Assembly: GCA_029936875.1 (NCBI GenBank)
Contig: JAPYRS010000006.1
Coordinates: 1-42,230, forward strand
Direction: 5' to 3'
Length of the DNA stretch: 42,230 nucleotides
Source of the DNA: Alphaproteobacteria bacterium
Lineage (GTDB): Bacteria; Pseudomonadota; Alphaproteobacteria; SHVP01
Shown piece by piece: positions 5,815 to 7,661 of the stretch (positions are counted from its first letter, which is position 1; each line of letters opens with the position of its first letter). The translations under genes and the position numbers were made by a program. The notes below the pieces were generated by a model, which saw only the letters and a list, made by a program, of their open reading frames with translations, searched no databases and was not told the DNA's origin.

Positions 5815-6735
5815 ATGCGCGCTCTTACAGAGTCGGTTGCGACTGAGGCACCCCCTGCATTCGAAGTCGATAGGCCCGATTCACAGACCGCCCCCTACAT
5901 ATTTGCCTCGCCTCACAGCGGCGATTATTACGACCCCAAATTCGTCTCCAGCACGAACTTAGACCCGTTAACGCTGCGGCGGTCCGAGGACAGTTTTGTC
6001 GACCGTATTTTTTCCTGTGCGACAAAACACGGCGCACCGCTTTTGAATACCCGGCATCCCCGTGTCTTCGTTGACGTCAATCGAGAGCCTTTCGAGCTCG
6101 ACCCCAGCATGTTCGATAGTGATTTGCCGGAATATGTAAATACCAATTCGCCGCGGGTCGCCGTGGGGCTTGGCACCATTCCCAGTATTGTCGCCAGCGG
6201 TGCAAAAATTTATCAGCGCAAACTAACTTTCGCCGAGGCGAGGGCGCGCATCGACAATTATTACGTGCCCTATCATTCGGCCTTGAAAAATCTTGTTAAG
6301 GCAACGCGCAAACGTTTTGGCGCGGCAGTCGTGATTGACTGCCACTCGATGCCGTCGGCGGTTGGCGCCGCCTATTCGGAATCAGAACGGGGCCGGCCGG
6401 ATTTTATTTTAGGAGATCGTTACGGCGTCAGTTGCCATGGCCTGATCATCGACTGCGCCGAACAATATCTGACCGACCTTGGTTATACCGTTGTGCGCAA
6501 CGACCCCTACGCCGGCGGCTTCGTCACCCAACACTACGGCCGGCCGGGGAACGGTATTCACGCGCTGCAGATTGAGATCAATCGGGCGATCTATATGGAT
6601 GAGGCACTGTTCCAACCGAGCAGCAACATGACGCGCCTGATGGGTCATATTGATGGTCTGGTCGGCAATTTGGTGCGGATCGACCCGGCCCGAATCGCAG
6701 CAGTTTCAAGCGCGGGCCGTGCGGTCCAAGCCTGA
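5815..6735 (+). CDS. N-formylglutamate amidohydrolase family protein
   Basis: The 306-residue protein belongs to the N-formylglutamate amidohydrolase family, which hydrolyses N-formyl-L-glutamate (last step of one histidine degradation route) or related N-formyl amino acids. Visible motifs are ASPHSGDYY near residue 30, the RVFVDVNREPFELDP segment, and VIDCHSMPS, which carries putative metal ligands. No other hut genes are nearby, so a role in histidine use is not supported by context. The ribosome binding site is weak; the ATG at 5815 is the first start that gives a family-like N-terminus. Confidence 0.88.
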   Translation: MRALTESVATEAPPAFEVDRPDSQTAPYIFASPHSGDYYDPKFVSSTNLDPLTLRRSEDSFVDRIFSCATKHGAPLLNTRHPRVFVDVNREPFELDPSMFDSDLPEYVNTNSPRVAVGLGTIPSIVASGAKIYQRKLTFAEARARIDNYYVPYHSALKNLVKATRKRFGAAVVIDCHSMPSAVGAAYSESERGRPDFILGDRYGVSCHGLIIDCAEQYLTDLGYTVVRNDPYAGGFVTQHYGRPGNGIHALQIEINRAIYMDEALFQPSSNMTRLMGHIDGLVGNLVRIDPARIAAVSSAGRAVQA

Positions 6736-6755
6736 AGTTTTGACGGCATTTACAT

Positions 6756-6795
6756 CAAAAAGAGGCCCGCCTACTTTTTGAGGGTAGGCAGGGCC
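6756..6795 (-). terminator. Rho-independent terminator of the candidate sRNA
   Basis: On the minus strand GGCCC-(T)-GCCTAC pairs with GTAGGC-GGGCC around a CCCTCAAAAA-type loop, giving 11 base pairs with one bulge. It is followed by TCTTTTTG. No T-run follows the hairpin on the plus strand, so it works only for minus-strand transcription. No minus-strand protein gene lies upstream of it, which is part of the case for an sRNA. Confidence 0.75.
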
Positions 6796-6863
6796 CGAGT
6801 TTAGGGAGGAAATACCCAGAAAGGGTACTCAGCATCGTATGCATGGAGAATGCCGATGCTGTG
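6756..6863 (-). ncRNA. Candidate sRNA with anti-Shine-Dalgarno-like stretch
   Basis: Between two plus-strand genes, the minus strand carries a full small-RNA layout of about 108 nt. A promoter lies at 6870-6898. A 5' hairpin at 6860-6831 has an outer stem AGCATCG/CGATGCT, an inner stem GCAT/ATGC and the loop UCUCC. A second hairpin at 6827-6813 (UACCC-UUUCU-GGGUA) follows. Next comes an unpaired UUUCCUCCCUAAAC with a UCCUCCC motif complementary to ribosome binding sites. An 11-bp terminator stem with a U-tract ends it. Alphaproteobacterial sRNAs with exposed CUCC motifs are known to block translation of many mRNAs, and this looks like one of that kind. The family is not identified, and expression is unproven. 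Confidence 0.7.
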
Positions 6864-6869
6864 ACACAA

Positions 6870-6898
6870 GATATAGTAGTTAGTTGAGCATCGTCCAA
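6870..6898 (-). promoter_or_regulatory. Promoter of the candidate sRNA
   Basis: The minus strand has TTGGAC, a 17-base spacer and TATATC. The expected start is near 6863, just before the first base of the 5' hairpin at 6860. The -35 box is only a partial match, but the spacing and the register with the RNA structure support it. Confidence 0.5.
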
Positions 6899-7103
6899 CC
6901 ATTTCCCGGATGAAGTCGACCTATTCTGCGGCTGTAGCCAATATACAACACTCGCAAATATTTAAAAATTTGAACAATTGGGCGCGTTATTCGTACCTGC
7001 CAAGGCCAGGCCGCGGCCAATTTTGCCGGGCATATTTGGGCGATGGCACGGGTATTGCGAAGTATTGAGCGGATATTCCAAGCGAGAGTACGGAGAAACC
7101 GCG

Positions 7104-7661
7104 ATGTCGCTGCTTATCAAACTGATTTTCGGAATTGCGGCGGGCGCAATTCTCGGCGGAATCATGAGCCCGGCCAATGCTGGCACCAGAAAATCCGCGT
7201 TTTCCGCTGAAATTGCTGCGCTTTGCCGGCCGCCAATTGCGAAAATGGAATCCCAGTATCAGTTTCCGCGCATGCTTCTGTCTGCGATATCACTGGCCGA
7301 ATCGGGACGATGGCACGCGGGCCGGCGAGAAAGTTTTGCCTGGCCGTGGACCATCACGTCCGCAAGTGACACCTGGTATTTTGATAGCAAAGTCGAAGCC
7401 GTTGCCTTCTCCGTCACCGACGAGGAAGATCTGTTGCGAACGCTCCGCCCTGGAATTGACGGCCTCATTCTCTCGGACGGGAAAAGACGCGCGACTTTTC
7501 TTCCCCAAGTGTGGGAGCAATTGAAAACACCAGAAGTCTTCGTCCGGCAACTGAAACGAAAAGCCGGCCTTGCCGACGATTTTTGGTCTGATCAGATGAC
7601 GTTTTTGCGCTATACCACCTTCAGCTTTGGCCGCCCGTTCGCGCCGTTTTCTGCAAAATAG
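7104..7661 (+). pseudogene. Chimeric ORF: lytic transglycosylase N-terminus joined to AMMECR1 C-terminus
   Basis: The 185-residue ORF starts at the ATG at 7104 (GGAGA ribosome binding site), not at 6978. Residues 1-27 are a signal peptide ending ANA. Residues about 28-101 match the start of a lytic transglycosylase (LLSAISLAESGRWHAGRRES, then WPWTITSASDTWYFDSK). From about residue 103 the sequence is the C-terminal part of AmmeMemoRadiSam protein A (AMMECR1): DEEDLLRTLRPGIDGLILSD, TFLPQVWEQL and LKRKAGLADDFWSDQM. Neither domain is complete, and AMMECR1 is normally cytosolic. The simplest reading is a deletion that joined two unrelated genes in frame near 7405-7420, removing what lay between. 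An assembly misjoin is possible. I see no way for the product to keep either activity. Confidence 0.8.

Follow-up and report, generated by a model that had tools for sequence, protein, structure and literature searches.

We have identified a small RNA (sRNA) gene on the minus strand between the gene for N-formylglutamate amidohydrolase (FGase) and a chimeric open reading frame (ORF) of an alphaproteobacterial contig. The sRNA is real, and it belongs to a known, widespread and partly characterized alphaproteobacterial family, Rfam RF00519, whose members have been called αR8, MmgR, SisA or "suhB"; it is not a new kind of RNA. Almost certainly, the feature is the single-copy, FGase-linked orthologue of the trans-encoded αR8/MmgR RNAs, and it very probably acts in the manner proposed below. 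A preliminary description of this locus had presented the sRNA as new and as not assignable to any named family. Neither view holds, since the entire RF00519 model aligns to the RNA with a score above the gathering threshold, and since its characteristic 10-nucleotide motif and its linkage to FGase are already published hallmarks of αR8 (PMC12559287). The family's RNA, 10-mer and FGase linkage are thereby extended to this alphaproteobacterial lineage, and a short list of predicted transporter and metabolic targets is obtained, while the general picture of the family is unchanged. In this report, "the window" is the whole stretch of 42,230 nucleotides that was analyzed.

Table 1. Positions in the window of the αR8-family sRNA, its parts and its neighboring genes
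Feature	Positions	Strand	Evidence
αR8/MmgR-family sRNA, predicted, ~107 nt	6757..6863	-	RF00519 match, fold z, model R1
Promoter: TTGGAC (6898-6893), 17-nt spacer, TATATC (6875-6870); CTATAT at 6876-6871	6870..6898	-	Sequence, conservation
SL1, 5' hairpin CAGCAUCG...CGAUGCUG	6828..6861	-	Covariation, pairing
SL2, hairpin AGUACCC-UUUCU-GGGUAUU	6811..6829	-	Fold, invariant core
10-mer UUUCCUCCCU, predicted anti-Shine-Dalgarno seed, mostly unpaired	6803..6812	-	Fold, conservation, seed of SisA (PMC12559287)
Intrinsic terminator hairpin and U run	6757..6798	-	Fold; GGGCC stem and U run conserved
FGase gene, convergent with sRNA	5815..6735	+	PF05013, 245 bits, E 1e-72
Divergent promoter-side gene: conserved-protein N-terminal part and AMMECR1 C-terminus	7104..7661	+	AMMECR1 PF01871

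Assignment to the αR8 family

The definition of the family was taken from a published study (PMC12559287), in which the hallmarks of αR8 RNAs are a Rho-independent terminator and an internal, single-stranded 10-nucleotide sequence, 5'-UUUCCUCCCU-3', located downstream of a weak hairpin. In most species with a single copy, the gene is also linked to FGase (PMC12559287). A covariance-model search against Rfam, one of the checks proposed with the preliminary description, aligned RF00519 (suhB, "Makes More Granules Regulator RNA (mmgR)") to the minus strand at 6749-6833, covering model positions 1-77 of 77. The score of 42.7 bits (E 1.3e-5 for the 42-kb window) exceeds the gathering score of 41 by a margin of only 1.7 bits. 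The same RNA has the 10-mer, a Rho-independent terminator, an adjacent FGase gene and compensatory changes in its stem.

A genome-wide search with RF00519 found one copy. We also constructed a model (R1) from nine sequences of the window's taxonomic family, the window's own copy among them. This model places the sRNA at 6754-6863, that is, over the whole predicted transcript, and likewise recognizes a sole copy in the genome. With either model, no further paralogues were found in the genome at E values up to 10. A match to the SAM-Chlorobi riboswitch at 6789-6861 on the minus strand (24 bits, below the cut-off of 35; E 0.017 for the 351 bases searched) was rejected as a chance overlap with SL1 and SL2.

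Structure and signals of the predicted transcript

Given the position of the promoter, transcription is expected to begin at about 6863. The minimum free energy (MFE) structure calculated with RNAfold (-44.2 kcal/mol) recovers exactly SL1, SL2, the 10-mer and the terminator; the two hairpins, unpaired stretch and terminator described previously on this strand agree with it to one or two bases. The fold has a z score of -6.0, and none of 200 dinucleotide shuffles folded equally well or better. SL1 has an 8-bp stem and forms the 5' end of the predicted RNA. The 3' bases of SL2 overlap the first bases of the 10-mer, of which 8 of 10 bases are unpaired in the MFE structure. The terminator stem comprises 6+6 bp with one bulge, closes a 9-nt loop and is followed by CUUUUU (6762-6757).

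The promoter proposed earlier, TTGGAC-N17-TATATC, is exact as to sequence, and all nine sequences compared in the taxonomic family share its CTATAT. It is nevertheless weak when compared with the E. coli sigma-70 consensus (3/6 and 4/6 matches). CTATAT agrees with the -10 consensus of alphaproteobacterial sigma-70, which would explain why a scan for E. coli-type promoters was empty. That scan, which also sought terminators, covered both strands from 6400 to 7200 and gave no hits; it is uninformative here, given a promoter of the CTATAT form and a terminator loop of 9 nt. The loop limit of the simple terminator scan was 8 nt, which is probably why the terminator was missed.

Conservation and covariation

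RF00519 matches occur in 111 of the 191 genomes of the class that were sampled, and an αR8 copy is present in 9 of the 10 genomes of the window's taxonomic family. Covariation among relatives, another of the proposed checks, is pronounced in SL1: across the nine aligned sequences of the taxonomic family, both partners in each of its 8 pairs have changed while pairing was preserved, and 98.6% of cells are paired. When the 3' partners in the nine-sequence alignment were shifted by one to three columns, pairing over the whole structure dropped from 91% to 37-49%. The five core pairs of SL2 are invariant in the same nine sequences, and its CCC/GGG pairing is invariant in a 16-sequence sample of the class. 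In the taxonomic family, the GGGCCC of the terminator is invariant or nearly so, and the 10-mer is near-invariant, one leading base differing in one genus. Judged by these comparisons, the RNA structure is under selection.

Apart from its last bases, SL1 lies upstream of the start of the RF00519 model. Hairpins resembling SL1 were observed 5' of the 10-mer in most of the loci of the class that were folded (L001-L067), and SL1 is therefore ordinary for αR8 rather than an addition. The Rfam model appears to stop short at the 5' end: the RNA has a covarying stem there that the model leaves out, and RF00519 could be extended to include it.

Genomic context

Assignment of the downstream neighbor as FGase, made previously from the ORF translation, is borne out by its Pfam match (Table 1). 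To examine this linkage more broadly, we collected 53 loci carrying the 10-mer exactly or with one mismatch and sought FGase within the ~1.5 kb examined. A homologue (37-59% identity, the window's own copy excluded) lies beside 40 of the 53, always convergent with the sRNA, and FGase linkage is found in all nine aligned loci of the window's taxonomic family. The N-terminal part of the gene on the promoter side is also conserved beside αR8 in many relatives; on inspection, it is like a lytic transglycosylase (SLT-like). From these comparisons, both position and sequence mark the window's RNA as an orthologue.

The promoter-side ORF is itself unusual. Its first ~100 residues are transglycosylase-like and are followed, in the same frame, by the last ~80 residues of AMMECR1. 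The two parts are ~3 kb apart in each of three relatives (L158, L159 and L160), so the window looks as if it has lost ~3 kb at this ORF, either through a genuine deletion or through a join made in assembly. In L158, the transglycosylase-like gene is separated from an M23 peptidase gene by genes for a radical-SAM (AmrS-like) protein and for MEMO1-AMMECR1.

Alternative explanations

The related AbcR (αr15) sRNAs are the most pertinent alternative assignment, given that they resemble the suhB model in part and that ABC transporters are among their targets too (PMC7143759). However, AbcR1 and AbcR2 are tandem copies adjoining lsrB (PMC7143759), whereas the window has one RF00519-like copy, located between FGase and the SLT-like gene in the position of single-copy αR8 RNAs and containing the exact αR8 10-mer. 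The RF00519 match moreover spans the full model, and when hits to families of one clan overlap, cmscan reports the best of these families alone. We consider membership in AbcR very improbable.

Two more radical readings merit even less credence. One is that the RNA represents a new family whose resemblance to αR8 is convergent, as might be supposed from the narrow margin over the Rfam cut-off and from the position of SL1 outside the model. Yet comparable 5' hairpins precede the 10-mer in most loci folded, the best RF00519 copies in relatives of the same taxonomic family score 49-53 bits, and the FGase and SLT-like neighbors are shared; this synteny together with the common 10-mer refutes convergence, to which we attach a negligible probability. 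The other is that no gene exists, and that a terminator and chance hairpins happen to occupy a convergent intergenic region, where the FGase mRNA could indeed be expected to terminate. The U run, however, follows the hairpin on the minus strand only, SL1 has compensatory changes, and the 10-mer is invariant in most loci. Conservation of elements that have no role in termination refutes this explanation, and its chances are likewise minute.

Proposed mechanism and predicted targets

The preliminary description proposed a ~108-nt trans-acting repressor that pairs with Shine-Dalgarno sequences. This proposal is well supported by the family match, the compensatory changes, the conserved promoter, terminator and neighborhood, and the existence of a characterized homologue, by analogy with which the RNA very probably functions in this way. 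The mechanism we envisage takes transcription, Hfq binding, repression and the identity of targets from homologues. The sRNA would probably have its own promoter, from which a ~107-nt transcript would extend to the intrinsic terminator, and the U tail of this transcript would bind Hfq; an hfq gene is present in the genome (E 1e-31). The exposed UUUCCUCCCU would then likely pair, with the assistance of Hfq, with Shine-Dalgarno regions of the GGGAGGAA type. Such pairing would block translation of a nutrient-uptake regulon that includes ABC-transporter binding proteins, acetyl-CoA synthetase and others.

Target prediction, also suggested earlier, began from the 38 GGGAGGAA sites in the genome, of which ~13 are just upstream of plausible start codons. 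Among the predicted targets are genes for five ABC solute-binding proteins (three SBP_bac_5, one Peripla_BP_6 and one NMT1-type) and for acetyl-CoA synthetase, a hydantoinase and an EF-G-like protein; duplex energies for the eight target sites computed are -16 to -20 kcal/mol. SBP_bac_5 is over-represented, with 3 of the ~13 start sites against 19 matches genome-wide (hypergeometric p ~1e-4, assuming roughly 2600 genes). This enrichment is suggestive only, as the control Shine-Dalgarno motifs AAGGAGGA and GGAGGTGA have too few start-codon sites to calibrate it. It is also confounded, because GGGAGGAA is a strong Shine-Dalgarno sequence, of the kind that genes for abundant binding proteins may carry whether or not the sRNA acts on them.

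More tentatively, and with the balance of probability somewhat against it, this single αR8 RNA might be a direct master repressor of binding proteins of peptide and amino-acid ABC transporters and of acetate activation by acetyl-CoA synthetase. If so, it would switch nutrient uptake as SisA does, possibly with a sponge RNA acting against it. By analogy, a putative sponge would possibly be a structured, intergenic, CrfA-like RNA with an A/G-rich loop containing AGGGAGGAA.

Comparison with characterized RNAs

SisA, an αR8 RNA of Caulobacter crescentus, pairs through the 10-mer with the 5' UTR of a TonB-receptor mRNA; repression is abolished by a point mutation and regained with a complementary mutation (PMC12559287). 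Hfq is involved, and under carbon starvation the sponge CrfA antagonizes SisA (PMC12559287). The window's RNA has the same 10-mer seed and FGase linkage, and its predicted targets, like the targets of SisA, are rich in membrane transporters. In contrast to Caulobacter, which has four siblings and CrfA, this genome has a single copy.

MmgR of Sinorhizobium meliloti responds to nitrogen status and keeps polyhydroxybutyrate granules in check (PMC7143759). Shared with it are the UUUCCUCCCU motif, three stem-loops, a Rho-independent terminator and the full-length covariance-model match, along with the FGase neighbor published for most single-copy members of the family. MmgR is 77 nt, whereas ~107 nt are predicted here, and its phenotype concerns polyhydroxybutyrate granules, whereas the targets predicted here are transporters. 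AbcR1 and AbcR2 resemble the window's RNA in their anti-Shine-Dalgarno-type pairing with ABC-transporter mRNAs, which for our RNA is a prediction, and differ from it in family and locus.

Other copies were observed among relatives in the class. One locus (L040, genome G007) has the 10-mer and flanking UAAACUUGGGCC; in the stretch examined, no T run was found downstream and no FGase gene, and this copy is perhaps degenerate or paralogous. In several genomes (G059, G042 and G163), RF00519 matches number from four to seven and some of them lie in tandem, including three within 600 bp on one contig (G042:C7:54432-55030). These multiple copies represent sibling expansion as in SisA-D of Caulobacter.
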